This document shows, piece by piece, positions 6,504 to 17,834 of a stretch of DNA of 64,000 nucleotides. The stretch is from Solidesulfovibrio sp. GTDB taxonomy: Bacteria > Desulfobacterota > Desulfovibrionia > Desulfovibrionales > Desulfovibrionaceae. Where the stretch lies: positions 1-64,000 of the forward strand of contig NZ_JBCFBA010000024.1 in the NCBI RefSeq assembly GCF_038562415.1, given 5' to 3'. Below the pieces are notes generated by a model, which was given only the letters and a program-made list of their open reading frames with translations, did not search any database and was not told the DNA's origin. The translations under genes were made by a program, and so were the position numbers. Position 1 is the stretch's first letter; every line of letters begins with the position of its first letter.

Positions 6504-6593
6504 GGAGGGATGGCCGAGCGGTTTAAGGCGGTGGTCTTGAAAACCATTGACGGGGCGACCCGTCCGGGGGTTCGAATCCCTCTCCCTCCGCCA
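6504..6593 (+). tRNA. tRNA-Ser (anticodon TGA)
   Basis: A 90-base tRNA with a seven-base acceptor stem (GGAGGGA at 6504-6510 with TCCCTCC at 6583-6589), an encoded CCA end (6591-6593), a TTCGAAT T-loop and a long class-II variable arm. The anticodon loop CTTGAAA gives anticodon TGA at 6538-6540, so it reads UCA-type serine codons. It is immediately followed by a P4-type integrase region and its 3' end appears to be the attachment site of the element. Confidence 0.96.
6579..6593 (+). other. Candidate attL core (tRNA 3' end)
   Basis: The last 15 bases of tRNA-Ser, CCTCTCCCTCCGCCA, recur with one base missing as CCTCTCCCCCGCCA at 17821-17834. With a few bases added upstream, 17 of 21 aligned positions match. 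This is the expected position of an att core for an integrase beside a tRNA. The imperfect match lowers confidence. Confidence 0.55.
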
Positions 6594-6695
6594 AATCTTA
6601 GTCCAACCAAGTCCGATTCAATCCAAAAAATCAAGAAAATCAGCACGAATCCGGCGAAACATGGTCCGGACTCGTCCACTTTGGTCCATTGACAT

Positions 6696-6790
6696 CCGGA
6701 CAACTCACCGGATAACAAACCGGACAGCAAATCGAGCGACCGGACAACAGCCGGGCCCGCTCCCTTGCTGGAACACGGGAGGTTATCCGG
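6696..6790. repeat. Left arm-type repeats CCGGAYAAC
   Basis: CCGGACAAC at 6696-6704, CCGGATAAC at 6708-6716, CCGGACAGC at 6720-6728 and CCGGACAAC at 6740-6748, plus an inverted GTTATCCGG at 6782-6790 just before the integrase start. The first three copies are spaced exactly 12 bases apart. The same motif, also with a 12-base period, recurs at 17739-17759 near the other end. This is the expected arrangement of integrase arm-binding sites just inside the att cores. Confidence 0.7.
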
Positions 6791-6791
6791 T

Positions 6792-8009
6792 ATGCCCCTT
6801 ACCGATGCTGCCGTAAGAAACGCCAAGGCCATGGACAAGACCTTGCGGCTCAAGGATGAGCGCGGCTTGTATTTGGAGGTAAGCCCCAAAGGCGGAAAAT
6901 GGTGGCGGCTGCGATACTGGCTTGCCAGCAAGGAAAACCGCCTCTCCCTTGGCGTCTATCCTGACGTGTCCCTCAAGGAGGCCAGGGAGCGCCGCGACGA
7001 AGCGCGAAAGCTCATCGCCAAGGGCATCGATCCGAGCGCGGCCAGGAAAGAAGAAAAAGCCGAAGCCGCCGCCGAGGCCCTTACATTCGAGCATGTGGCC
7101 CGGGAGTGGTACGAACGCTTTAAGCCCAAGTGGTCGCCCTCCCACTCCCTGGATGTGATCCAGCGGCTTGAAAAGAACGTCTTCCCTTCTCTTGGCCCCC
7201 TCTCCATCCGCGACATTACCGCCCCCGAACTGTTGACCGCCGTCCGGCTCATTGAAGGACGGGGCGCAGTCAAAAGCGCACGTCGCGTCTTGCAAATGTG
7301 CGGACAAGTCTTCCGCTATGCAGTCGCCACGGGACAGGCGGACCGGGACATTGCCGCCGACCTGCGGGGATCATTGCCGCCAGCTAGGGAGAAACACCAC
7401 GCCAGCATCACCGACCCCAAAGGGGTGGCACAACTGCTGCGCGCGATAGACGGCTATCAGGGCTCTTTTGTGGCACTGTGCGCGTTGCGGATCGCCCCGC
7501 TTGTCTTTGTCCGCCCTGGCGAACTGCGTCATGCCGAGTGGTCGGAAATCGACCTCGACAAGGCCGAATGGCGCATCCCTGCCGAGAAAATGAAAATGCG
7601 GGAGCAACACATCGTGCCCCTTTCCCGGCAAGCAGTCGCCATCCTGCGGGAACTGCATCCCCTGACCGGAGTCGGGCGCTACGTGTTCCCATCAATCCGG
7701 ACCTCGGCGCGCCCCATGTCCGAGAACACCGTTTTGGCCGCGCTGCGCCGCATGGGCTACACTAAAGACGAAATGACCGGTCATGGCTTCCGCTCTATGG
7801 CCTCTACCCTACTCAATGAGCAGGGGTGGAACCGGGATGCAATCGAGCGCCAGCTTGCCCATGGGGAGAGAAACGCAGTCCGTGCGGCCTATAATTTCGC
7901 TGAGCATCTTCCCGAGCGCCGCCGTATGATGCAGGCGTGGAGCGACTACTTGGACACGCTCAAGGCCGGGGCAAAGGTGACGCCGATCCATGCCACGGCA
8001 GGCGACTAG
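6792..8009 (+). CDS. int: P4-type tyrosine integrase
   Basis: A 405-residue tyrosine recombinase that would integrate and excise the element at tRNA-Ser. The N-terminus (PLTDAAVRNAK, then LYLEVSPKGGKWWRLRY) is the DUF4102 arm-binding domain of P4-like integrases. A SAM-like core-binding domain and a C-terminal catalytic domain follow. Catalytic residues visible are Arg246 (PGELRHAEW), His331 and Arg334 (HGFRSM), His357 (LAHGE) and the nucleophile Tyr367 (RAAYN). All are present, so it should be active. The ATG at 6792 has GGAGG upstream and overlaps the end of the inverted CCGGATAAC copy, which would allow the integrase to repress its own gene, as in P4. Confidence 0.95.
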   Translation: MPLTDAAVRNAKAMDKTLRLKDERGLYLEVSPKGGKWWRLRYWLASKENRLSLGVYPDVSLKEARERRDEARKLIAKGIDPSAARKEEKAEAAAEALTFEHVAREWYERFKPKWSPSHSLDVIQRLEKNVFPSLGPLSIRDITAPELLTAVRLIEGRGAVKSARRVLQMCGQVFRYAVATGQADRDIAADLRGSLPPAREKHHASITDPKGVAQLLRAIDGYQGSFVALCALRIAPLVFVRPGELRHAEWSEIDLDKAEWRIPAEKMKMREQHIVPLSRQAVAILRELHPLTGVGRYVFPSIRTSARPMSENTVLAALRRMGYTKDEMTGHGFRSMASTLLNEQGWNRDAIERQLAHGERNAVRAAYNFAEHLPERRRMMQAWSDYLDTLKAGAKVTPIHATAGD

Positions 8010-8019
8010 GGGAGATGCC

Positions 8020-8229
8020 ATGGCCTACACGGAATCCGACCATAAGCGGCAAGGGACGCGCCGGGCGCGCTGCGCCTCATGCAAATGGTGGTTCGCCAGC
8101 ACATGCCGCAAGCGCTCTCCGTGGATTGTTGCCGGGCAAGTAGCCGGCGGCCAGGGCTTCGACGGGATATGGCCCCATACCCCTTCCGATTCATGGTGCG
8201 GCGATTTTGCTTTCGGCCAGGAAACTTGA
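8020..8229 (+). CDS. Small cysteine-rich protein
   Basis: A 69-residue protein not recognised. It has a CxxC pair (CASCKWW), two further cysteines (TCRK and WCGDF) and several Trp and Arg residues, so it may fold round a zinc ion. The start ATG at 8020 has GGGGAGATGCC upstream and lies ten bases after the integrase stop, so the two genes are probably co-transcribed. Small zinc-ribbon proteins beside satellite integrases may be excision factors or DNA-binding accessory proteins, but nothing here shows that. Confidence 0.55.
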   Translation: MAYTESDHKRQGTRRARCASCKWWFASTCRKRSPWIVAGQVAGGQGFDGIWPHTPSDSWCGDFAFGQET

Positions 8230-8387
8230 TCCCTTGCCCTGGTGACAGGTGCAGAGCCAAACGAGCAATTGCGGGCGTAAACGATACTTCCAGGGCCTAG
8301 CCGGGGCCTCATGAACCCTGGCGAAAAGCCGCGTCCCTGGCGGCCGGCCCTGGTTTAATACAGGGAGGTAAGCCGAGGGGGCTTAGT

Positions 8388-9083
8388 ATGAAAAAAAGGA
8401 ACTTTCTGAGTTATGAAGACCTAGACCGATACTATCCGTTTATTGCTGCCATGGAAAAAAGTCTAGGGCTAAAAGACAATTTTCTTGTTGAGAATATCAG
8501 TAAAAAAAGGATTGAGGCGATTCACCCGGGTGGAGATACTGATTTTGATATAGGCTTATTCCTGAAAGTTTTGCGATTCAGAAGATCTTCTTTCGATGCA
8601 TTTTTTACAAAACTTTTCCAGACTTTAATCAATAAAATAACTGACAGACCAAAGATAGGGGGGATGTCTTTCGACGAAGAAAGAGAAGGTGATGATAATT
8701 CGAAAAAAGACAAATTAACATTCGAAGCGATGATAGAATGGCTTAAAATTGACGAAGAACCAAGCACAACAAATAGCATGGAAGAATGGCTTATTGATAA
8801 ATACACCAAGCCAATAACATATATATATCAAAGCGAACAACATAGAGGCCGCAAACAAAAGCTAAGTGACATGGAGTGCTTGAGGTTATACCGACTCCAC
8901 TACAGTGGTGACAGACCTTCAATTGCGAAAATTGCCAATGAATACAATTGGAAAGATTCACCCTATATGGACACGACGTCAGATAATACTAAACGAGACA
9001 GAATTAAGAAGGCCATCATTCGTGGCCGTGCACAGACCCCACCGAGAGACCGCCCATTGTCAGACAAGACGGGCCGGGACTGA
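8388..9083 (+). CDS. AT-rich cargo protein of unknown function
   Basis: A 231-residue protein not recognised. Its base composition is far more AT-rich than that of its neighbours (many AAA, ATA and AAT codons), a sign of recent transfer. The N-terminal two thirds are acidic and helical with an SYEDLDRYYPF opening. The C-terminal third (LSDMECLRLYRLHYSGDRPSIAKIANEYNW) looks like a helix-turn-helix followed by a basic segment RDRIKKAIIRGR. The ATG at 8388 follows GAGGGGG. It lies alone between the integrase block and the AlpA operon, the position where satellites often carry cargo or defence genes. No enzymatic motif is visible. Confidence 0.7.
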   Translation: MKKRNFLSYEDLDRYYPFIAAMEKSLGLKDNFLVENISKKRIEAIHPGGDTDFDIGLFLKVLRFRRSSFDAFFTKLFQTLINKITDRPKIGGMSFDEEREGDDNSKKDKLTFEAMIEWLKIDEEPSTTNSMEEWLIDKYTKPITYIYQSEQHRGRKQKLSDMECLRLYRLHYSGDRPSIAKIANEYNWKDSPYMDTTSDNTKRDRIKKAIIRGRAQTPPRDRPLSDKTGRD

Positions 9084-9087
9084 TCGC

Positions 9088-9214
9088 TTGGTGGGTAATC
9101 TAAAGCCGCCACAATTTCCCACCAGTATTTCCCACCAGCCACTTCATTGTAACTGCCTGAAGTAGCTTTTAATATTTCTTTTGCATTTGTAAAAAAGACT
9201 TTGATTCCCACCAG
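9088..9214. repeat. TTCCCACCAG iteron-like repeats
   Basis: TTCCCACCAG occurs at 9116-9125, 9129-9138 and 9205-9214, with an inverted near-copy TTGGTGGGTAA at 9088-9098. The first two are 13 bases apart. The cluster fills the 177-base gap upstream of alpA, so it may be an operator for that operon, or a recombination or replication site. Confidence 0.6.
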
Positions 9215-9260
9215 TTGGTGCGCGTCATCCTTGGACCAATCAAGACCAAGGAGGCCGCAA

Positions 9261-9482
9261 ATGCACGGCAACATCCCCTTTCCCACTTCAGGTTTCGTCC
9301 GGGTCAAGCAAATCATAGGCAACCGCAAGGCCGGTGAGGTCGGCCCCATCCCCATTTCCCGGTCGGCGTGGTGGGCAGGCGTCAAAGACGGCCGCTATCC
9401 CCAACCGGTGAAACTAGGACCCCGGACGACAGCATGGCGAGCCGAGGACATCAACGCCCTGATCGAAAGGTTGGGTGCGTAA
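9261..9482 (+). CDS. alpA: AlpA-family transcriptional regulator
   Basis: A 73-residue winged-helix protein of the AlpA / MerR-like excisionase group. The pattern SRSAWWAGVKDGRYPQPVKLG followed by TAWRAEDINALIERL is characteristic: a recognition helix, then a wing and a short C-terminal helix. In P4-like and PICI elements AlpA proteins activate the integrase or the replication operon. It is the first gene of a plus-strand operon leading into the replication protein, with a GGAGG ribosome-binding site ahead of ATG 9261. The repeat cluster TTCCCACCAG just upstream is a natural candidate for its binding sites. Confidence 0.88.
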   Translation: MHGNIPFPTSGFVRVKQIIGNRKAGEVGPIPISRSAWWAGVKDGRYPQPVKLGPRTTAWRAEDINALIERLGA

Positions 9483-9483
9483 C

Positions 9484-9717
9484 ATGGACGCTAAACGAAT
9501 GCGCCCCCCGGTTCTGGCAAACCGAAGGGGCGCGGAAATTGAGGCGGGTGACAACTCCTCATTGCCAGCCCTGGCCCCCACCGTCAACTTGGAATCCCCA
9601 CGCCTTTGGTCGGTCTTCCGGCGTTACGCCAGGAATCATCGGCGCATTGCCCGGCTTATTGCTGAAAACGAGGGGCTGCTTGAACGCCTGCGGCAAATCC
9701 AGGGGGTGACCTCATGA
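9484..9717 (+). CDS. Small hypothetical protein
   Basis: A 77-residue protein not recognised, basic and largely helical in its C-terminal half (LWSVFRRYARNHRRIARLIAENEGLLERL), which could be a short DNA-binding or coiled-coil helix. It starts one base after the alpA stop, and its own stop overlaps the next start (ATGA), so it is in the alpA-replication operon. The ATG at 9484 was preferred to a GTG nine bases earlier because it follows directly after alpA. Confidence 0.6.
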   Translation: MDAKRMRPPVLANRRGAEIEAGDNSSLPALAPTVNLESPRLWSVFRRYARNHRRIARLIAENEGLLERLRQIQGVTS

Positions 9718-9878
9718 CCGCCGTCAAGCTGGCCCTGGCTTTGTGGGCGCGTGATGGCATCATTTCCTTGGTCGTCCTGGCTGGCTGGCCCCGGTGGGCG
9801 TGGGCGCATCGGGCCGTGGATCGCTGCCAGGTCGCGGCCGAGGCCCTGCGGGAACGGCAGGAGGAGGTGAGCGGGTGA
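9714..9878 (+). CDS. Small membrane-segment protein
   Basis: A 54-residue protein with a hydrophobic stretch from residue 5 to about 30 (ALWARDGIISLVVLAGWPRW) and a polar helical tail. Its ATG at 9714 overlaps the previous stop (ATGA) and its TGA overlaps the GTG of the replication gene (GTGA), so it is locked into the operon by translational coupling on both sides. Such overlaps suggest a real gene despite the small size. Function unknown. Confidence 0.5.
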   Translation: MTAVKLALALWARDGIISLVVLAGWPRWAWAHRAVDRCQVAAEALRERQEEVSG

Positions 9879-12253
9879 TCGACTTCAAATCCATCAACGC
9901 CGCCGCCCTCCCACACCTGGGTGACCTCTTGCCCCGCTGGCTGCCCGGTGGGCACGCCGAAGCCGGGGAATACGTCTGCGCCTCTCTCGAAGGTGGCCAG
10001 GGCCGATCCTGCTCCGTGAACTTGGACACGGGGGCATGGGGCGATTTTTCCACCGATGCCAAGGGTGGCGACCCTATATCCCTGTGGGCTGCTATCCGGG
10101 GCATCAAGCAAGGCGAGGCCGCCCGCGAACTGGCCCGGGACCTCGGCCTTGAGGTGGATAGGCCGGCCAGGAACAACCGCCGCCGCGTTGTCGCCGCCTA
10201 TGACTACCTCGGCCCGGACGGTCAGATGGTCTTTCAGGTCACGCGGTGGGAGCCGAAGACCTTCACGCAACGCCGCCCGGACGGGAACGGCGGGTGGATT
10301 CCCAGCGTCAAGGGTATCGAGCTCGTGCCTTACCGCCTGCCGGAGATCATCCAGGCGAAGGCCGTCTTTATCGTCGAGGGCGAGAAGGACGCCGATGCCC
10401 TGGCCGCCCTTGGCCTGGCTGCGACCTGCAACGCCCAAGGCGCCGGCAAATGGCGGCCCGAGTATAACCGCCACTTTGCCGGCAAGCGCGTGTGCATCCT
10501 GCCCGACAACGACGACCCCGGACGAAAGCACGCCCGCGACGTGGCCCGACAACTTCACGGTCTGGCCGAGGTGGTCAAGGTCATTGAGTTGCCTGGCCTG
10601 CCGCCCAAGGGCGACGTGTCTGACTGGCTGGCCGCCGGCGGTACGCGGGAAAGCCTCGTGGAGAAGGTGAAGGCCGCGCCCGCATGGGAACCGTCCGCAG
10701 AGGCCCCCAGCGACCAGGAGACGGCCGGGGATGCTCTGGACAAGGGAAAGCCCATCCGCCTCATCAACGGGGCCATGAGCGAGGCTGTGGACGCCTGCGA
10801 AGCCATCCTTGCCCGGCCCGACCTCCCGACCGAATACCGGACCTTTCAGCGAGGCGGCCAGCTTGTGCGCGTGGCGACCCTGCCGGCATCCGCCATGGCT
10901 GACGGCGTTTCGCGCCCGGCCGGGGCCGTGGTCATCATGGAAGCGCAAAAGGCGTTCCTTATGGACGTTCTCGGCCGCTTCGCCAGCTTCGAGAAATTCA
11001 ACGTCAGGGACGATGCCTGGAAACCTGCGAACCCGCCCAAGGAGTTGGCCGAAACCATCCAAGCCCGTGCCGGCTTGTGGCCCGTGTCGGCGCTGCGGGG
11101 CGTTGTCGCCTGTCCGACCATGCGGGCCGATGGCTCGTTGCTCCTGGTGCCAGGCTATGACGCCGCCAGCGGCTATTTCATGGCCCATGGGCTGGCCGTC
11201 GAGGTCTTGGACACGCCCAGGGTGGCCGATGCCCGCGCCGCACTTGAGGCCCTGGCGGACTTGCTGGCCGGCTTCGCCTTCGTGGAACCGCTCGACTGTT
11301 CCGTGGCCCTGGCCTTGATCCTGACGGCGGTTGCCCGGCCGGCCTTGGCCTCCGTGCCCGTCTTCGCCATCACGGCCCCGGTGCGCGGATCGGGCAAGAG
11401 CACGCTACTCGACATCGCCGCAGTCATCGCCACGGGCCGGCGGTCGGCTGTCCTCTCGGCCACCTCCGACCACGCCGAGCTCGACAAGCGCCTTGTCGGC
11501 TGCCTGCTGTCCGGGGACGCAATCGTGAACCTGGACAACATCAACGGCAACCTGCGGTCGGACCTCCTGTGCCAGGCCACAACCTCCGAAGCCGTGAAGG
11601 TGCGCCCCTTGGGGGCCTCCTCCCAGGTGGAAATCCCCAACACGGCCCTTTGGAGCGCCAACGGCAACAACCTCGCCTTGTCGGGCGACCTTTCGCGCCG
11701 GGCGGTCCTGTGCCGCCTCGACCCAGGCATGGAGCGTCCCGAGGAACGGAGCTTTGCCTTCGACCCTGTGGCCAGGGCCATGGAGCGCCGTGCCGAGTAT
11801 GTGGCAGCCGCCCTGACCGTCATGCGGGCCTATGTCGCCGCCGGTCGGCCGGGCCTCGACCTCGCGCCGTTTGGGAGCTTTGAGCGGTGGTCGGCCATGG
11901 TCCGCGCCGCCATGGTTTGGGCCGGGGCTGCTGACCCCTGCGAGAGCCGCGCCGCCGTCATGGAAGATGACCCCGAGGCCGCCATGCTTCGCTCCCTGGT
12001 GACCGCCTGGTGGGACCGCTTTGGCCGAACCCCCAGAACGGTCAAGGAGATCGTCCGGGCCGGCGAGGAAGACGACAGCCCGCTTGCTGAGGTCCTGCAC
12101 GACATCGCCGGGGAAGGCCGAGCTATCAATACCCGTCGTCTGGGGTGGTGGCTGCGCCGGCAAGCTGGCCGCATCGTTAACGGCTTGAAGTTGGTTCAAT
12201 ACGGTTCTGTCTCCGGTGTGGCCCAATGGAAGATACTGCCCCGGGGTATGTAG
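9875..12253 (+). CDS. Primase-helicase replication protein
   Basis: A 792-residue replication protein. The N-terminal region resembles phage primase zinc-finger-like domains. It is followed by a TOPRIM domain with the catalytic Glu168 in FIVEGEKDAD and the acidic motif LPDNDDPG. The C-terminal half is a P-loop ATPase with Lys508 in VRGSGKST, a Walker B-like stretch (AIVNLDNING) and an arginine-bearing sensor region (GDLSRRAVLCRL). P4 alpha-like proteins of this type combine primase and helicase and replicate the element from its own origin. The start is GTG 9875 with GGAGGAGG upstream, overlapping the previous gene's stop. It is the largest gene of the element and shows no disruption. Confidence 0.88.
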   Translation: MIDFKSINAAALPHLGDLLPRWLPGGHAEAGEYVCASLEGGQGRSCSVNLDTGAWGDFSTDAKGGDPISLWAAIRGIKQGEAARELARDLGLEVDRPARNNRRRVVAAYDYLGPDGQMVFQVTRWEPKTFTQRRPDGNGGWIPSVKGIELVPYRLPEIIQAKAVFIVEGEKDADALAALGLAATCNAQGAGKWRPEYNRHFAGKRVCILPDNDDPGRKHARDVARQLHGLAEVVKVIELPGLPPKGDVSDWLAAGGTRESLVEKVKAAPAWEPSAEAPSDQETAGDALDKGKPIRLINGAMSEAVDACEAILARPDLPTEYRTFQRGGQLVRVATLPASAMADGVSRPAGAVVIMEAQKAFLMDVLGRFASFEKFNVRDDAWKPANPPKELAETIQARAGLWPVSALRGVVACPTMRADGSLLLVPGYDAASGYFMAHGLAVEVLDTPRVADARAALEALADLLAGFAFVEPLDCSVALALILTAVARPALASVPVFAITAPVRGSGKSTLLDIAAVIATGRRSAVLSATSDHAELDKRLVGCLLSGDAIVNLDNINGNLRSDLLCQATTSEAVKVRPLGASSQVEIPNTALWSANGNNLALSGDLSRRAVLCRLDPGMERPEERSFAFDPVARAMERRAEYVAAALTVMRAYVAAGRPGLDLAPFGSFERWSAMVRAAMVWAGAADPCESRAAVMEDDPEAAMLRSLVTAWWDRFGRTPRTVKEIVRAGEEDDSPLAEVLHDIAGEGRAINTRRLGWWLRRQAGRIVNGLKLVQYGSVSGVAQWKILPRGM

Positions 12254-12412
12254 TGGTTTTTATGGGTTTCATGGGTTCTCTATATCTAACGCGGGAAATT
12301 TCGCAGTGAGTGAACGTCTGCGAAAATACTATGAGTGGCTTAGCAAAACCCACGGAACCAACCAAAACCCACGACGCCGACAATCAGAGTTTTCTACCTG
12401 AGAGGAAATGTC

Positions 12413-12601
12413 ATGCCCAGGACTGAAATAAATGACGCTATGTCCCGCCCCGTCCACATGCCGTCCATGACCGAGGCCGAGCTTGAGGCCGAGCTTGAGG
12501 CCGAGGCCATCCGGGAACTTGAGCGCATAGAACGGGCACTCAATGCCAAGCGGTCGAACTACAGGCCCAAGCGCCGGGGACGGTATGAAAATCGTGGTTG
12601 A
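12413..12601 (+). CDS. Small Glu-rich helical protein
   Basis: A 62-residue protein not recognised. Its middle is a run of EAEL repeats encoded by a 12-base tandem unit (GAGGCCGAGCTT, just over two copies near 12475-12505), followed by a basic tail (NYRPKRRGRY). It should form a single charged helix, perhaps coiled-coil. The start ATG 12413 has GAGAGGAAATGTC upstream. It overlaps the ERCC4 nuclease gene by 17 bases, so the two are likely co-translated. Confidence 0.6.
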   Translation: MPRTEINDAMSRPVHMPSMTEAELEAELEAEAIRELERIERALNAKRSNYRPKRRGRYENRG

Positions 12602-13088
12602 TACCAGGGAGCAACGCCCGTTTCCCTTCGCCAAGTATGAGGCCGACGTGGAGCGCGCCGCCCTGCCGACTGCCGACTATTCCTTGCCGGGCTTCGAGGA
12701 TCGGGTGGGCATCGAGCGCAAGGAGCTTGGCGACCTTGTGGGCTGCCTCATGGGGGCCAATCGGGAACGCTTCGAAAAGGAGCTTCGCCGCCTGTCTGCC
12801 TATGACCTCAAGGCCGTGGTCATCGAAGCGTCCATGCGCGACGTGGCCGATGGGCTTTACCGTTCGGAGATGAAACCGCACGCCGTGCTTCAATCGGTCC
12901 TCGCCTTCCAGGTGCGCTACGCCGTTCCCTTCCTGTGGTGCGGCGACCGATCCGGCGCGGAGTACACGACCTTTTGGCTCTTGGCGAAGTACGCCCGCGA
13001 GATCGAGGAGCGCATGAAGGCCCTGACCAAAGCCCAGGCCAAGGCAAACGCCCCTCCCCCCTCCCGGGTGAGGTTGACGGCGGCGTGA
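12585..13088 (+). CDS. ERCC4-type nuclease
   Basis: A 167-residue stand-alone ERCC4/XPF-like nuclease. The catalytic pattern is clear: Asp6 and Glu9 in VVDTREQRPF, Asp31 in PTADYSL, then Glu44, Arg45, Lys46 and Asp50 in GIERKELGD, the family's ERKxxxD signature. Such enzymes cut branched or flapped DNA; in phages and plasmids they often act in recombination or replication. There is no attached helicase, which is usual for phage versions. It belongs to the alpA-primase operon. The start ATG 12585 lies inside the preceding gene. Confidence 0.9.
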   Translation: MKIVVDTREQRPFPFAKYEADVERAALPTADYSLPGFEDRVGIERKELGDLVGCLMGANRERFEKELRRLSAYDLKAVVIEASMRDVADGLYRSEMKPHAVLQSVLAFQVRYAVPFLWCGDRSGAEYTTFWLLAKYAREIEERMKALTKAQAKANAPPPSRVRLTAA

Positions 13089-13199
13089 CCCGAGCCGGCG
13101 ACCGGATGAGATCACGGGTCCTTCTGAGGGGTTTTCAAAGCGGATACACGGAGCCGCAACATTCCGCTAGGCACACAAATTTTAAAATAAGGAATAATC

Positions 13200-13715
13200 A
13201 TGACCACTTCCAACAAGCTCTTGACCCAAACCGCTTTCGCCAAGTCCGTTGGCGTCGGGCAGTCGTGGATTTCCAAGCTCGTGAAGGCCGGCAAACTGCC
13301 CACCATCGGGGGCATGATCGACCCGGCCAAGGCCGCCCCCATCATGGCGAAGCTCAAACGCCAGCCGTCGCCGCACAAGGAGGAACTGCGCTACCAGAAC
13401 GCCCGCCTTGCCCAGGCCCGCGCCGATGCCCAGGAGATCAAAAACAAGGTCACGCGGGGCGAACTGCTGGACGGGCGGGATGCTGCGGACGTGTTTGGCA
13501 ACCGGCTGGGGAACTTCCGTAATAAGCTCCTGTCCTTGCCCAACCGGGTGGCCCCGTTGCTGGCGGGCGTGAAGACCGCCGAGGAAGCCACGGCGATTAT
13601 CAATCAGGAAATGACTCATGCCCTGGAAGAACTCGGGACGCCTGACGGGGTGGTTACTGAGATCCTCGCCCGTAGTGCACAGGCCCGGCAGGAAAGGAGG
13701 GGGGCGAGGCAGTAG
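13200..13715 (+). CDS. Nu1-like terminase small subunit
   Basis: A 171-residue protein with an N-terminal winged helix-turn-helix (TQTAFAKSVGVGQSWISKLV, then GKLPTIGGMIDPAKA) and a helical C-terminal half rich in Glu, Arg and Ala. Size and order match lambda Nu1 / terminase small subunits, which recognise cos or pac sites for DNA packaging. In a satellite this protein would redirect a helper phage's packaging machinery to satellite DNA. The ATG at 13200 follows AAGGA. No large terminase subunit is present in the element. An alternative is a plain DNA-binding regulator, because the call rests on domain layout. Confidence 0.7.
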   Translation: MTTSNKLLTQTAFAKSVGVGQSWISKLVKAGKLPTIGGMIDPAKAAPIMAKLKRQPSPHKEELRYQNARLAQARADAQEIKNKVTRGELLDGRDAADVFGNRLGNFRNKLLSLPNRVAPLLAGVKTAEEATAIINQEMTHALEELGTPDGVVTEILARSAQARQERRGARQ

Positions 13716-13801
13716 TCCGTTCCCACCTGCGACACCCTGGTGGCCTGTTCCTCGCGGAGCGGGCCGCTTTTTGTTGCCGTAATGGTCGGCTGGACGCCGC
13801 C

Positions 13802-14164
13802 GTGGCTGTGACCTCGGCTGACCTCCCCCTTGGGGACCATCCCAGCCCGTGGCATCCTTCGACCATGCCGACCCCGTTTGACCCGCTGGCGTGGCTGGCC
13901 AGCAAGAGCACCGAGGCGTTCCTTGATCCTGCCGGGCAAGTGCGTCTCCGCTTCGGGCAATTTGTCCACAAGGAGGACCGGGCGCGCATCCGCCGCGTGA
14001 TCGAGCGTTGGTATCTGCCCGTGCTGCGGCTGCAACTGGACGTGGAACCCGGAACGCGGCCGAGGTCGGTCTACCAGCTGTTGGCGAGTGGGAAGCTCAA
14101 GATCGTGGAAGGGCGGTATCGGGAGGTGGAAAAGAAGGGATGGGGACAATTTTCGGATATATAA
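13802..14164 (+). CDS. Hypothetical protein downstream of terS-like gene
   Basis: A protein of about 120 residues not recognised. It contains a conserved-looking core (FDPLAWLASKSTEAFLDPAGQVRLRFG, read in pieces) and a short HTH-like end (SVYQLLASGKLKIVEGRYREVE). The start is uncertain: GTG 13802 gives 120 residues, ATG 13865 gives 99, and neither has a good ribosome-binding site. It is the last plus-strand gene of the replication/packaging run, facing the AT-rich cargo gene beyond. Confidence 0.5.
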   Translation: MAVTSADLPLGDHPSPWHPSTMPTPFDPLAWLASKSTEAFLDPAGQVRLRFGQFVHKEDRARIRRVIERWYLPVLRLQLDVEPGTRPRSVYQLLASGKLKIVEGRYREVEKKGWGQFSDI

Positions 14165-14179
14165 CGTATTGCGGATGAT

Positions 14180-14971
14180 TTAGTCTATTTTCCTGACGGG
14201 AAGTTTTTCTCTCTCCTCACAAAACTTTTCAAATATGCTCGCAATATCCTTTTCAAGGCCAAGATGAAATTTTTTTGCAATGCACTCAATAGCTACAATC
14301 ATTGGCTGAATAAGCAAAGCTAGCATCCAGTTTGCATTTTTTTGCTCAGGGCCAAGTCTTAATTCGGCAACATTTTCATCTTTATCAAGAGCAAGTCTTC
14401 CTCCAAGACTTCGAAGTGATGGATGGGTATTTATTGTACTCAAATGAGGATAGAGAAGGTCATACATATCCTGAAGGCTAGCCTTGGACGCTGCTTCGCA
14501 ATAATTTAATTTCGCCCGGTCTGCTTCTTTATATTTTTCGAGTTCCTGTTGGTACAAGCGCAAATACCTGTCTGCATTCGAGTCGTCCAACTCCCCATTT
14601 GCTTCAAGCCTCGTTGTGTATTGTAAATATCTTTTGTAAACATTTTCAACAGCGGTTGCGTCAGTACGTTTGTACGTTTCAAGGTATTTATTGTCGTCTA
14701 TGCAGGCTTTCAGTACAAATAAAGTCTCAAGCAAGCTTCTAATTATAGTGCCTGCGTCCTGGATATAGCCATTTGATATAAGTAGTTTGGCTGACGAAAA
14801 TGAATTAACTATTCTATAAAATAGTGCATAAAAGAGAAGGTGGTCTGTGTTTGTTTTGTCGATTTTTGCAAGCTCAGTAATTCGCGTAATAATCATCGAT
14901 ATAAGGCTGCATGTACTAAGCAACTCAGTATTATTATGCGCTATATTACGCATTACTTCTTTGTCGATCAT
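14180..14971 (-). CDS. DUF5677-like cargo protein
   Basis: A 263-residue, strongly AT-rich, mostly helical protein. The motifs FSSAKLLISNGYIQDAGTII and RSLLETLFVLKA, together with later YPHLSTINTHPS, resemble DUF5677 proteins, whose function is not established but which occur on mobile elements. Codon use differs sharply from the host and from the replication operon, so it is a later acquisition. It lies on the minus strand, convergent with the replication/packaging operon and next to the HTH switch. A defence role is possible by position only. Confidence 0.7.
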   Translation of the reverse strand: MIDKEVMRNIAHNNTELLSTCSLISMIITRITELAKIDKTNTDHLLFYALFYRIVNSFSSAKLLISNGYIQDAGTIIRSLLETLFVLKACIDDNKYLETYKRTDATAVENVYKRYLQYTTRLEANGELDDSNADRYLRLYQQELEKYKEADRAKLNYCEAASKASLQDMYDLLYPHLSTINTHPSLRSLGGRLALDKDENVAELRLGPEQKNANWMLALLIQPMIVAIECIAKKFHLGLEKDIASIFEKFCEEREKLPVRKID

Positions 14972-15076
14972 ATAGAGGTCTCCAAAGATTATTTCAAGGT
15001 ATTAGACAAGCCGTCCTATTCATGCAAGCAATCACTAAGAATGATATGAGAATACTACGTCTATAATCTCAGCCAC

Positions 15077-15289
15077 CTAGCCTTCCTCGTACAAGTCCTT
15101 CGTCTTGACCCCAAGTGCCCCGGCGATGGTGGCGAGAGTTCTAAGCGAACAGCTTTCAATCCGCTGGTCACGCGCCCGCATGACTGTTTCGTTCGAAAGC
15201 CCTGTCAGAGTCATCATGCCTGCGACAGTCACATTCTTTTCGGTCATTATTGGCTTGACCTTGCTAGTGATCGTTTGCTTTGAGCTCAT
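15077..15289 (-). CDS. Cro/CI-type HTH repressor
   Basis: A 70-residue XRE-family regulator made almost entirely of one helix-turn-helix domain (GMMTLTGLSNETVMRARDQ, then LRTLATIAGALGVKTKDLYE). It begins at ATG 15289; the longer frame upstream runs into the promoter region. It is transcribed away from a small-protein operon on the plus strand, with about 150 bases between them holding a promoter and two copies of TACCGAWATTTY. This is the classic layout of a phage or satellite master repressor. Confidence 0.85.
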   Translation of the reverse strand: MSSKQTITSKVKPIMTEKNVTVAGMMTLTGLSNETVMRARDQRIESCSLRTLATIAGALGVKTKDLYEEG

Positions 15290-15292
15290 ACG

Positions 15293-15340
15293 TACCGATA
15301 TTTCGAGATTTGCCTTGACCTGTCTATACCGAAATTTTAG
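15293..15340. promoter_or_regulatory. Candidate operators for the HTH repressor
   Basis: Two direct copies, TACCGATATTTCGAG at 15293-15307 and TACCGAAATTTTAG at 15327-15340, are spaced 34 bases apart (about three helical turns). One lies next to the repressor start, the other covers the spacer and -10 of the rightward promoter, so binding could repress both directions. Confidence 0.55.
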
Positions 15341-15343
15341 AGT
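15315..15343 (+). promoter_or_regulatory. Sigma70-like rightward promoter
   Basis: A -35 TTGACC at 15315-15320, a 17-base spacer and a -10 TAGAGT at 15338-15343. It points to the small-protein operon that begins at 15443. One candidate operator covers the spacer and the -10. Confidence 0.6.
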
Positions 15344-15442
15344 GTCGCCAACAAACGTTTTCCCAAAAAGGCAGCCCGGCAAGGAGTCGTCACCTCCCAG
15401 CCGGGCTTGACCAACCCGCAACCTTTCAAGGAGGTTTCGAGC

Positions 15443-15646
15443 ATGGCTGAGCATCCGCTTACCCTGTCCCACGTCCGCGTTCAATCCCAACCCCACGCCC
15501 TCGCCGCCGTCCGCGCCTGGGTGGCCCTAAAAGCCGCCTGTGGCCATTCCCGCCCGTTCTTCGGCCCCGGCCCGGCCTCGCTGCCCGTGGAGCCCTCCGC
15601 GCTGATTTGCCCGGTTCTTGTGGGCGAGGAGTTGCGCCATGGATAA
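15443..15646 (+). CDS. Small hypothetical protein, switch operon
   Basis: A 67-residue protein not recognised, with an N-terminal polar segment and a C-terminal Pro/Gly-rich segment (PFFGPGPASLPVEPSA). The start ATG 15443 has a near-perfect ribosome-binding site (AAGGAGG), the strongest in the element. It is the first gene after the repressed rightward promoter and overlaps the next gene by eight bases. By position it could be an early protein made when the repressor is lifted. Confidence 0.6.
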   Translation: MAEHPLTLSHVRVQSQPHALAAVRAWVALKAACGHSRPFFGPGPASLPVEPSALICPVLVGEELRHG

Positions 15647-15926
15647 TGCCATCGAGCACGCCACTCCCTACCAGGTTACGGCGGAAGAACTCGTGAAGGA
15701 CCTCGACACACTGTTGGAAACCGTCCGGGGCATCGCCTGCCGGCTCGAATTCATCGGGACCGGCTTGGCCCTGGACAATCCCAACATCAAGGGCGCGTCC
15801 CTTGCCCTGGTTGACACGGAAATGAAGGTCCTGGACCTTGTCGAGGATTTGGAGCGGATGGCCGCTAGCGCCAGCGAACTGGCCGGCGCCACGGCAGAGA
15901 CGGACGGTGGGGATGTGCGGTCATGA
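15639..15926 (+). CDS. Small helical protein, switch operon
   Basis: A 95-residue acidic, helical protein not recognised (EELVKDLDTLLETVRGI, later VDTEMKVLDLVEDLERM). It overlaps the preceding gene by eight bases and the following gene by four (ATGA), so translation is coupled through the operon. No membrane segment or metal-binding motif is visible. Its size and place among early satellite genes would suit a regulator or a phage-interference protein, but there is no direct evidence. Confidence 0.6.
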   Translation: MDNAIEHATPYQVTAEELVKDLDTLLETVRGIACRLEFIGTGLALDNPNIKGASLALVDTEMKVLDLVEDLERMAASASELAGATAETDGGDVRS

Positions 15927-16300
15927 GCGTCAAGACCCTGGTGCGCAAGGCGGCTTTCAAGGCCATGGGTTGCGTGGAAATCCCTTTTGGCGGCAAGGTG
16001 GGTCTGACTCCCGAGCAAGAGCGGGCTGCAGCCGTCCGGGTAGGGCTGCGGCCCTTGTGGCTCACCAACGATCCGCGCCACTCGCACCTTTACGTCATGC
16101 ACTTCAACGGCGACCGGGACGCCACTCCCGAGGAGGCGGCCGACTGGCTTCAAATTGACCTGGAACGCATGGAACGCGCCGGCCTGACCCTTGCCGAGCC
16201 GGGCGACCCTGACGGCTTCCTGGCGAAGTGGAAGGGACGGGCCAGGGAGCGGGAGCGCATCAAGAGTGAGAAGGAAGCGCGCGAGGTGGTGCAGGCGTAA
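15923..16300 (+). CDS. Hypothetical protein, last switch-operon gene
   Basis: A 125-residue protein not recognised. It begins MSVKTLVRKAAFKAMG and has a mixed alpha/beta core (LRPLWLTNDPRHSHLYVMHF) and a basic C-terminal helix (KWKGRARERERIKSEKE). Its ATG overlaps the previous stop. It closes the rightward operon before the AT-rich non-coding stretch. GC content is like the host's, so this operon and the cargo genes have different histories. Confidence 0.6.
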   Translation: MSVKTLVRKAAFKAMGCVEIPFGGKVGLTPEQERAAAVRVGLRPLWLTNDPRHSHLYVMHFNGDRDATPEEAADWLQIDLERMERAGLTLAEPGDPDGFLAKWKGRARERERIKSEKEAREVVQA

Positions 16301-16354
16301 GACCGACCTCGGCAACCTGATCATGGGCGGCCTGCTTCTTCGGAGGTGGGCCGC

Positions 16355-16590
16355 TTTTCCATTTTTTTCCACGGAATGTTCCGCGTTTTTCCGCCGCAAA
16401 CAATACCAGAAAATATACTACTATAAAAACAGCTTGTTACAAAATAGGGCGACGCCAATTCTTCCACGTGGAAACGGGAAAATAGCTAAAAATTATTTTA
16501 TATCAGTATGTTAGCAAATTTCCATTTTTCCACAAAAAAAGTGCTTTTAAAGCCCGCGAGGGGGCGGGAGACAGTTCTCCCGCAAGGTGA
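16355..16590. other. Candidate replication origin region
   Basis: The 306-base gap 16301-16606 is AT-rich. It holds TTTTTCCAC-type repeats (16364-16373 and 16525-16533), a perfect 12-base palindrome TTCCACGTGGAA (16462-16473) and a hairpin GCGGGAG-6-CTCCCGC (16564-16583). Repeated short motifs beside an AT-rich stretch, in an element with its own primase-helicase, suggest an origin. The hairpin could instead help terminate dinD transcription. Confidence 0.4.
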
Positions 16591-16606
16591 TGCCCCATTG
16601 TGAAGA

Positions 16607-17458
16607 TTATTCCTCTGAAGGAGGAAGCGCCTTTCTCCTCTCGGACTCCAACTTCTTAATGCTTTTTTCCGGTGTTGGAAGATTTTCAGGCATCGTTCCT
16701 CCTAGCTCTTTTATTGTCTGGCGCACTTTAGCTCCGACTTCGTAATGTGTAACATTTGCAGCCTGCTTTCCGCGAACATTTTCGCGGCGAAGCTTTTCTT
16801 CTGTTTGAGTGGCACGGAAAAGGTTTGCTGCTAATTCTGTGCTCCCCATGTGGTCAAGGATTTGGTTGCTCTTCTTTAAGCCCTTCTTTGCATGAATAGC
16901 TTTAGCCCCTAACCCTCCATATAGGCCTTTATATCCATGATCTTAGAATATTGCATAATCAAGACCTGTAAAAACGCCTGCATCTTTTGCAGCTGCGCAC
17001 AATCCTTTGTTATGCCGAGTCATTTCAGAGCGCAATGCTAGGCGACGCTCGTCTTCTGTTAGTTGTCTAAAGGACGACTCATCGCTTATTTCTTGACGCC
17101 GCGTCTGCAAAGCGAAGTATGATTGGCCAAGAGCAATAACTGGCTTCGAAGGATCGCCGTTTTGGACGATCAAGTAGCAAGCATACCTTGACAATTTAAA
17201 GTCTTGAACTTCCCGCTTAGCCCCCGAACCAAGCGCGACCATTTTGCTGACCTCAGCAAAATGGTTCTTTGTTTCCTGTCCGGAATTCTGGCAAGAAACT
17301 TTCGATTTTTCGATAACTTGAACGAAATTTCGCCATTGCTGATACTCAAGCAACGGGGCTAAATCTCTGGCAAACCAGAACTCGTTCCCGTCCTCGTCCT
17401 CGTTCCGAATTTCATCAAATGTCCGGTGGTGTTCATTCTCAATCTCGTCAGGGCTCAT
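16607..17458 (-). pseudogene. dinD: dinD broken by one in-frame stop
   Basis: A DinD (DNA-damage-inducible protein D) gene of 284 codons, close to the roughly 274 residues of the E. coli protein. The N-terminal part (ATG 17458 to 16946) has NEHHRTFDEI, LSRYACYLIVQNGDPSKPVI and QTRRQE. A TAA at 16943-16945 follows DYAIF. The same frame then continues with DHGYKGLYGGLG, HAKKGLKK, LDHMGSTELAANLFRATQTEEKL (read in pieces) and VRQTIKELGGTMPE to a stop at 16607. In the E. coli protein, as I recall it, the stop position is a glutamine, so a single CAA-to-TAA change explains the break. DinD acts on RecA filaments in the SOS response. The gene has a GGAGGAG site and is otherwise intact, so inactivation is recent or an error. 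Confidence 0.9.
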
Positions 17459-17738
17459 CTGCTCCTCCCGTTTTCACATGGCTTCGCAAGAGCTATTCGG
17501 TAGTCATATGCAATTATTGGGCAGCATGGCAACGGGCGCACCGACGCCCGTAACGCCCCGTTTCCGCGTCCTGGCGTCCAGGCCGGGTAAATGTCACGGG
17601 CCGGGTTGGGGACGATCCCCCGGGGGGAGGACATGGCGTATAGGCAGGGTACGGGTGATTTCATGTCGAGTGTGGGGCGCCGGCTGGACGGAGCTCTGGC
17701 CACGATGATAGTAAGCAGGGGTGCAGGGAGACAAGCAA
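17459..17738. other. Non-coding stretch before right arm sites
   Basis: GC-rich sequence upstream of dinD. It would hold the dinD promoter, but no clear -35/-10 pair or LexA-like site was seen. The open frames here lack ribosome-binding sites and their translations look random. Confidence 0.4.
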
Positions 17739-17759
17739 CCGGATAACTTTCCGGATAAC
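17739..17759 (+). repeat. Right arm-type repeats CCGGATAAC
   Basis: Two perfect CCGGATAAC copies at 17739-17747 and 17751-17759, spaced 12 bases apart like the left-end set at 6696-6728. They lie about 60-80 bases inside the candidate attR core, the usual place for integrase arm sites. Confidence 0.65.
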
Positions 17760-17820
17760 TGTAAAATTTCGAACGCATCTTAACGTTTGCAATCAGCATG
17801 TTCCGGCTTCAATGTGAAGT

Positions 17821-17834
17821 CCTCTCCCCCGCCA
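17821..17834 (+). other. Candidate attR core
   Basis: CCTCTCCCCCGCCA, one base short of the tRNA-Ser 3' end CCTCTCCCTCCGCCA. It is the best tRNA-end match seen on the right side and lies just outside the CCGGATAAC repeats. The mismatch means the true crossover could be elsewhere nearby. Confidence 0.45.

Follow-up and report, generated by a model that had tools for sequence, protein, structure and literature searches.

A probable phage satellite resembling phage-inducible chromosomal islands at a tRNA-Ser gene of Solidesulfovibrio

We analysed 64,000 nucleotides of a Solidesulfovibrio sp. genome (Desulfovibrionaceae; contig NZ_JBCFBA010000024.1, positions 1 to 64,000, hereafter the window), in which an 11.2-kb element at 6579-17834 is integrated at a tRNA-Ser(tga) gene, its left attachment site (attL) lying inside the 3' end of the tRNA. 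The GC content of the element is 57.6% as compared with 68.8% for the rest of the window. From left to right the element carries genes for an integrase and a 69-aa protein, an int-alpA RNA, genes for a 231-aa protein, AlpA, an 80-aa and a 54-aa protein and a replicase, a putative origin, and then genes for a 62-aa protein, an ERCC4 nuclease, a small terminase subunit (TerS), a 99-aa protein and a leftward DUF5677 protein. Further right lie a divergent helix-turn-helix (HTH) switch, whose rightward side comprises three small genes, a hairpin resembling a terminator, and dinD, which is broken and points leftward (Table 1). The alpA gene, the 80-aa and 54-aa open reading frames (ORFs) and the replicase gene form a tight rightward row with overlaps of 4 to 8 nt. 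Among the 20 ORFs of the element scanned with Pfam and PHROGs, TerS was the sole virion- or packaging-type family and no capsid, portal, tail, large terminase (TerL) or lysis family was found.

Table 1. Positions of the element's features and of its target gene within the window, with the main supporting match or remark.
Feature	Position	Strand	Match or remark
tRNA-Ser(tga), integration target	6504..6593	+	ARAGORN; Rfam tRNA
attL core CCTCTCCCTCCGCCA	6579-6593	+	same 15 nt at both att sites of the G297 element
Tyrosine integrase, P4 type	6792..8009	+	Arm-DNA-bind_3, Phage_int_M, Phage_integrase
69-aa conserved protein	8020..8229	+	no Pfam/PHROG match
int-alpA RNA (RF02996)	8290..8365	+	43.9 bits vs gathering threshold 35.8
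231-aa protein, AT-rich	8388..9083	+	no match in Pfam, PHROGs, PADLOC, NCBIfam
AlpA-like regulator/excisionase	9261..9482	+	PF05930 4.5e-6, above cut-off
80-aa protein	9475..9717	+	copy behind alpA in the G095 element, 88% identity
54-aa ORF	9714..9878	+	4-nt overlap with both neighbours; no Pfam/PHROG match
Replicase, TOPRIM primase and P-loop helicase	9875..12253 (longest ORF from 9794)	+	PHROG primase/helicase families
Replication origin (putative)	12254..12370	+	3 iterons 12254-12278, 67-bp core, 3 inverted iterons 12346-12370
62-aa protein	12413..12601	+	72% identical in C14, 60% in G095
ERCC4-family nuclease	12585..13088	+	PF02732 2.3e-11; phrog_3490 9.6e-24
TerS	13200..13715	+	phrog_57 9.9e-31, residues 1-166
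Small 99-aa protein (ATG 13865)	13865..14164	+	36%, 1.8e-9 to own prophage C1:243236-243580
DUF5677 protein, AT-rich	14180..14971	-	PF18928 1.5e-19
Cro/C1-type HTH repressor	15077..15289	-	PF13443 5.3e-8; faces rightward operon
67-aa protein, first of divergent operon	15443..15646	+	no Pfam/PHROG match
Small switch-operon protein	15639..15926	+	34%, 6e-9 to G297 satellite
Small switch-operon protein	15923..16300	+	40% in G125, 51% in G095
Conserved hairpin, 14-pair stem, TTCG loop	16307..16359	+	terminator-like
dinD, two frames 16607-16849 and 16943-17458	16607..17458	-	NF008573, phrog_8036
attR core CCTCTCCCCCGCCA	17821-17834	+	same 14 nt in G125 attR; flank conserved with G297 attR

The gene content agrees with a first-pass annotation of the same DNA, which had named an integrase at tRNA-Ser, AlpA, a TOPRIM/P-loop replicase, an ERCC4 nuclease, a Nu1-like small terminase and a divergent HTH switch in a Desulfovibrio-type host, with no capsid, tail, portal or lysis gene. 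Its guess of the host was right as well. The int-alpA RNA, the origin, the 69-aa gene and the break of dinD into two frames had been missed there.

The right end of the element was set by comparison with sister elements. An exact search of the window for a repeat of at least 14 nt of the tRNA end found none, and the 23-nt tRNA end with up to three mismatches gave no second copy, the three other matches looking like tRNA ends. The right attachment site (attR) could be recognised because sister elements at the same tRNA carry the same core, as an exact 15-nt attL/attR pair in the 13.5-kb element of genome G297 and as the same 14 nt in genome G125. The 137 bp around the window attR are 75% identical to the right end of the G297 element, and by eye the sequence following attR resembles a hairpin located directly 3' of the tRNA in two loci (L108 and L104). 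A right end before dinD, suggested by the presence of dinD near the tRNA in two sister genomes, was abandoned given that attR of the G297 and G125 elements lies beyond dinD. Both ends proposed in the first-pass annotation were thereby found correct to the base. No structural or lysis gene, the finding that it had named as speaking against a satellite, was seen beyond the right end, where a reading by eye gave glycosyltransferase, radical-SAM and chemotaxis-type genes; the ORFs of at least 80 aa elsewhere in the window likewise look like host genes when judged by eye and without a family scan.

All 14 genomes of the genus sample matched the left flank of the window, one of them (G298) in part, and the sequence downstream of tRNA-Ser was readable in 11 of the 13 sister genomes (left out were G298 and G104, the contig of G104 ending in the tRNA). 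Two of these 11 sites carry other satellites (G297 and G125), three carry remnants (dinD and attR-like stretches in G089 and G296, an attR-like stretch in G078) and six (G299, G116, G095, G173, G102 and G183) have no recognisable element in the 9 kb listed downstream of the tRNA. For the G297 element an empty counterpart site was found in G299, where the tRNA is followed by the radical-SAM gene that in G297 comes after attR. No prophage was seen at any of the 11 readable sites, which is a small sample. The G297 satellite (L103) encodes an Sf6-type TerS (6811-7278, minus strand, PF20901, E = 1.2e-39) of a family unrelated to the window TerS. The G125 satellite (L110, G125:C9 940-18885), behind whose attR a second integrase-like stretch follows in tandem, shares the integrase, AlpA and switch genes of the window element and has replication genes of another type.

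The arm, core and catalytic domains of the integrase were matched with E values of 8e-23 to 8e-35 (Pfam), and the identity of the protein to its counterparts at this tRNA is 88% in G297 and 85% in G125. Copies of the 69-aa protein adjoin integrases in three other loci (53.6% identity in L103, 55.1% in L324 and 79.4% in L005). The last of these, at the tmRNA gene of the same genome (C1:18.1-19.6 kb), has an integrase 73% and a 69-aa protein 79% identical to those of the window, and is apparently an island remnant. The int-alpA RNA also scored above the gathering threshold in L103 (two copies), L110, L324 and a sibling element on contig C14 of the same genome (L044); the Rfam covariance model found none in L045 or L050. 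Rfam matches to FinP and to a plastid 3'UTR were below gathering and were rejected. The overlaps of the 54-aa ORF suggest that it may be translationally coupled with its neighbours. AlpA is 79% identical to its copy in the G095 element, in which the replication genes look different from those of the window (by eye). Given that AlpA and its neighbour are 79-88% identical in two elements whose replication genes look different, modules appear to be exchanged between elements.

The replicase matched phrog_29234 (3.5e-125) and phrog_239 (4.9e-31), with Toprim_2 and DUF5906 of Pfam below cut-off. In PADLOC its TOPRIM part gave a match to a primase-like protein of a reverse-transcriptase system (3.9e-11), and the other proteins of the element gave weak or dinD-type matches only. 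Adjoining the replicase gene is a recognisable, putative replication origin: three direct 9-bp iterons start directly after the replicase stop codon and face three inverted ones. In PICI (phage-inducible chromosomal island) origins, iterons lie next to the replication gene. The window origin scored 36 out of 42, with a maximum of 29 in shuffled sequences, and the same arrangement was present in 11/11 loci, that is the window and ten relatives from nine genomes (the window's own genome and G078 twice), with scores of 35-42 and none of the 25 shuffles per locus above 30. The iteron word varies by lineage (TGGGTTT, GGGGTTT, AGGTTTT, AGGACTT and others), but the two arms of any one element mostly carry the same word, less cleanly so in G184, G005 and G084. 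Recognition of its own iterons by each replicase lineage would produce such a pattern. Scores of 34-42 were reached by 11 of 20 further loci, for which six shuffles per locus gave at most 31; three of the 11 duplicate loci of the first set and two have other core lengths (L147 and L153). Among the remaining nine, L149, L225 and L229 scored 1-2 points above their own shuffles, and the other six did not surpass theirs. Two of the high-scoring loci (L221 and L223) read as phages by eye, which indicated that the replicase/origin module is common to phages and satellites.

The identity of TerS rests on phrog_57 together with the neighbours of its relatives because Pfam alone was insufficient. The best Pfam match was Phage_Cox (2e-5, below cut-off), Nu1 itself was weak (0.013), NCBIfam gave only a weak antitoxin match and phmmer against solved structures found nothing significant. 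These results are what one would see if the protein were merely a Cox/MerR-type regulator in an element that does not redirect packaging, an explanation we regard as improbable given that phrog_57 covers nearly the whole protein and that the genes of its relatives are placed as those of small terminases are. In a phage collection 17 records matched (6 Roseobacter phages, 10 Wolbachia and 1 Exiguobacterium phage), and all six Roseobacter homologues are annotated as terminase small subunit. In Roseobacter phage CRP-811 the genes for TerL and portal come directly after the homologue, in phage WO an ankyrin gene separates it from a lambda-like TerL two genes on, and in a prophage of G157 (L062) it stands directly before a gpA-type TerL (GpA_ATPase 8.5e-86, GpA_nuclease 2.8e-95). 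The concern raised in the first-pass annotation, that Nu1-like matches might be to unrelated regulators only, was thus not borne out. A scan of viral contigs gave one partial match. A single-sequence structure model, of modest overall confidence (mean predicted local distance difference test, pLDDT, 72; predicted template modelling score, pTM, 0.36), has an N-terminal winged-helix-like fold, with pLDDT 84-87 for blocks of ten residues over 11-50, and is helical in its C-terminal two thirds. Small terminases are helical in their C-terminal part, and the model in this respect also speaks for a small terminase.

In the right part of the element, the 99-aa protein has 87-89% identical copies in G297 and no match in the phage collection. 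The HTH repressor has 52-60% identical copies in other elements, and the 67-aa protein of the switch operon is 73% identical in C14 and 68-74% in G297. The hairpin motif (about 50 bp) was found in 18 places including the window, in 10/14 genomes of the genus, with 79-100% identity over the matched part. It lies within 40 nt after a gene stop in 8/18 places, and by eye often stands right after a small mobile-element gene and before variable cargo (SIR2-like, Panacea-like, dinD). It is likely to be an operon terminator; a terminator scan gave 5 such sites against 4.4 in shuffled sequences. A role as a cos site common to helper phages was considered and rejected, as the motif follows a gene stop in those 8 places and forms a TTCG hairpin, and its match near the prophage of the same genome (C1 268.3 kb) lies outside that prophage. 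The dinD and DUF5677 genes are probably cargo, dinD being decayed: NF008573 was over its cut-off by the N-terminal piece alone, and phrog_8036 matched both pieces. The dinD gene is also split in a related element of G124 (L053 8965-9815), and open copies of 283 and 310 aa are present in G089 and G296.

Elements with the same type of replicase and origin were found to differ in the genes that follow the ERCC4 nuclease. The C14 sibling (C14 41918-60272; L044, L045) is an 18.3-kb element at tRNA-Phe with a perfect 50-bp att repeat, whose replicase is 91% identical to that of the window and whose DNA is 89% identical over 2.7 kb including the origin. In place of terS it carries a gene for a DUF5681 protein and three virion ejection-type genes, whose products measure 341, 669 and 671 aa. 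A transglycosylase domain of virion type was found in the 669-aa protein, which has no match to an 833-aa protein of a G184 prophage (G184 C1, L319); relatives of the other two, the 341- and 671-aa proteins, are encoded by 362- and 709-aa genes downstream of the TerL, portal and major head genes in that prophage. No capsid, portal or terminase family was found among the scanned ORFs of the C14 sibling, its integrase and a few small ORFs having been judged by eye or BLAST, and a 69-aa excisionase-like protein gave a weak phrog_57 match (3e-4) in its N-terminal DNA-binding part. The 671-aa protein occurs in 5/288 genomes of the family: the window's own, G297 (95% identical, on a 7.7-kb contig) and, as distant copies in surroundings that look prophage-like by eye, G184, G109 and G155. 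An element of Fundidesulfovibrio agrisoli has the same plan and origin type, a replicase with 63% identity and virion ejection-type genes of 592 and 760 aa, the 760-aa protein having no Pfam/PHROG family; no att repeat was found for it and no capsid, portal or terminase was seen among the three proteins scanned. The G125 satellite encodes a 2183-aa transglycosylase/LPD3 protein, and a 131-aa segment of it has 65% identity to a giant virion-type protein (2948 aa) of a prophage in the window's own genome. The family thus appears modular, siblings with the same type of replicase and origin carrying other packaging-related or virion genes after ERCC4.

This comparison bears on two other explanations of the element. 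If it were a prophage that has decayed, losing its late genes and keeping integrase, replication and terS, the broken dinD would be in place, as would the occurrence of the replicase family in contigs that read as complete phages. The replicase, ERCC4, TerS and switch genes are nevertheless open and the origin and both att sites are kept, replicase elements in which no capsid, portal or terminase is seen recur (one of them in the same genome with its perfect att repeat), and the same tRNA holds satellites rather than prophages in two sister genomes, all of which makes decay unlikely. Less likely still is an integrative island, immobile or mobile in some other way, in which terS is a chance passenger. 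Some related integrase-replicase elements do carry restriction-modification genes or lie near CRISPR-like arrays without a packaging gene (by eye), but the second element at the same site carries a TerS of a different family, and the virion-type genes of the C14 and Fundidesulfovibrio siblings indicate that phage-morphogenesis genes recur in that position.

A podovirus-like temperate phage would be a likely type of helper, a candidate being a prophage at approximately 206-265 kb of contig C1 in the same genome. It has TerL (phrog_675, 2e-80), portal/adaptor (phrog_332, 3.5e-53) and major head (phrog_267, 7e-8, an 83-aa piece) genes, and its TerL is the one GpA-type TerL of the genome. One small gene is common to this prophage and the window element, and the 131-aa segment to it and a sibling satellite; the G184 prophage has relatives of two of the three ejection-type proteins of C14. 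Both prophages, which we read as podovirus-like, differ from the satellites in having TerL, portal and major head genes. Long repeat arrays resembling CRISPR arrays were noted by eye within or beside the C1 prophage (C1:244-249 kb, L136) and, at 4.4-10.5 kb of L054, adjoining a related integrase-replicase element.

On the basis of tRNA-Ser att sites, a replicase with an iteron origin, a module of integrase, int-alpA RNA, AlpA and HTH genes, a TerS of its own and the lack of detected virion genes, we consider the element very probably an integrated satellite of the type of Gram-negative PICIs, belonging to a modular family of the Desulfovibrionaceae represented here in the genus Solidesulfovibrio. 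PICIs have integrase, replication module and master regulator in a conserved order without structural or lytic genes, measure about 12-15 kb, occupy a unique att site never taken by prophages, may or may not have TerS, are induced by phages, interfere with them and are packaged into infectious particles. The window element resembles Gram-negative PICIs (PMC6092414) in its integrase, AlpA, primase-type replication gene with adjoining origin, TerS, tRNA att site, cargo near one end and lack of detected structural or lytic genes, is slightly below them in size, and differs in its phrog_29234-type replicase, ERCC4 nuclease, int-alpA RNA and distal Cro/C1 switch, and in that siblings carry ejection-type genes in place of terS. 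The likeness is one of gene families and gene order, and the element would represent a new family. The first-pass annotation had read the element as a satellite of a helper phage, a reading that our results support; redirection of helper packaging by TerS and phage interference by the small switch-operon proteins, both put forward there, would be candidate functions. P4-like satellites (PMC8628076) share with the element insertion at a tRNA by a P4-type integrase, together with alpA, a primase-helicase and a variable cargo zone near one end; the window element is not P4 since psu, sid, delta and epsilon were not detected among its 20 ORFs (very diverged copies could escape Pfam and PHROGs), and it differs further in having its own TerS.

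By analogy with PICI biology (PMC6092414), helper induction, a hybrid terminase and transfer can be proposed. An incoming or induced helper phage would relieve the HTH repressor, AlpA together with the integrase would excise the element, and the replicase would bind the facing 9-bp iterons, melt the core and amplify the circle. The satellite TerS would then join the helper's lambda gpA-type TerL and load satellite DNA into helper heads, so that the next host would be entered through the helper's tail.

Several observations weigh against this interpretation. The attR of the window keeps 14/15 nt of the core with a 1-nt gap, and the failure to find an exact second copy of the tRNA end counts against a fresh insertion. 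The empty tRNA-Ser site that the first-pass annotation had suggested looking for was obtained in part: six sites lack a recognisable element, but a search of relatives for an unoccupied site bordered by the right flank of the window element found none. The window gene to the right of attR is elsewhere or missing in relatives and never beside the tRNA, and the right-flank genes of G299, the nearest empty genome, are not on the window contig. Given the gap in attR, the broken dinD and the lack of an exact empty site, the insertion may be old. The TerS type is rare in the order (2/297 genomes including the window's own, E 1e-5), no packaging site common to the element and C1 206-270 kb was found (best DNA match 27 bp, E = 0.014), and the helper was not identified, the G157-type TerL having no match in the same genome and distant matches (24-29% identity) in 4/14 genomes of the genus.

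Thorough study of phage satellites has centred on a small number of bacterial groups, and none of the titles and abstracts listed in searches that covered few subscription journals dealt with satellites of Desulfovibrio relatives or with satellites that have ejection genes. New here are the int-alpA RNA, the putative facing-iteron origin, the broken dinD and the sibling satellite with ejection-type genes, which lies outside the window. The element provides a boundary-mapped probable satellite in a sulfate reducer. It has a recognisable putative origin in which the iterons of the two arms vary in concert, and the replicase, origin and integrase may serve as markers for finding such elements in environmental genomes. 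It is quite possible, at somewhat under even chances, that these satellites form one modular Desulfovibrionaceae family, in which the window element stands for a branch with TerS and other branches supply their own DNA-ejection apparatus. Siblings with either terS or ejection-type genes after ERCC4 form a natural set in which DNA recognition or DNA delivery may be the helper step that is controlled, and if the ejection proteins enter helper particles, injection would be the step at which such satellites refit the virions they borrow.

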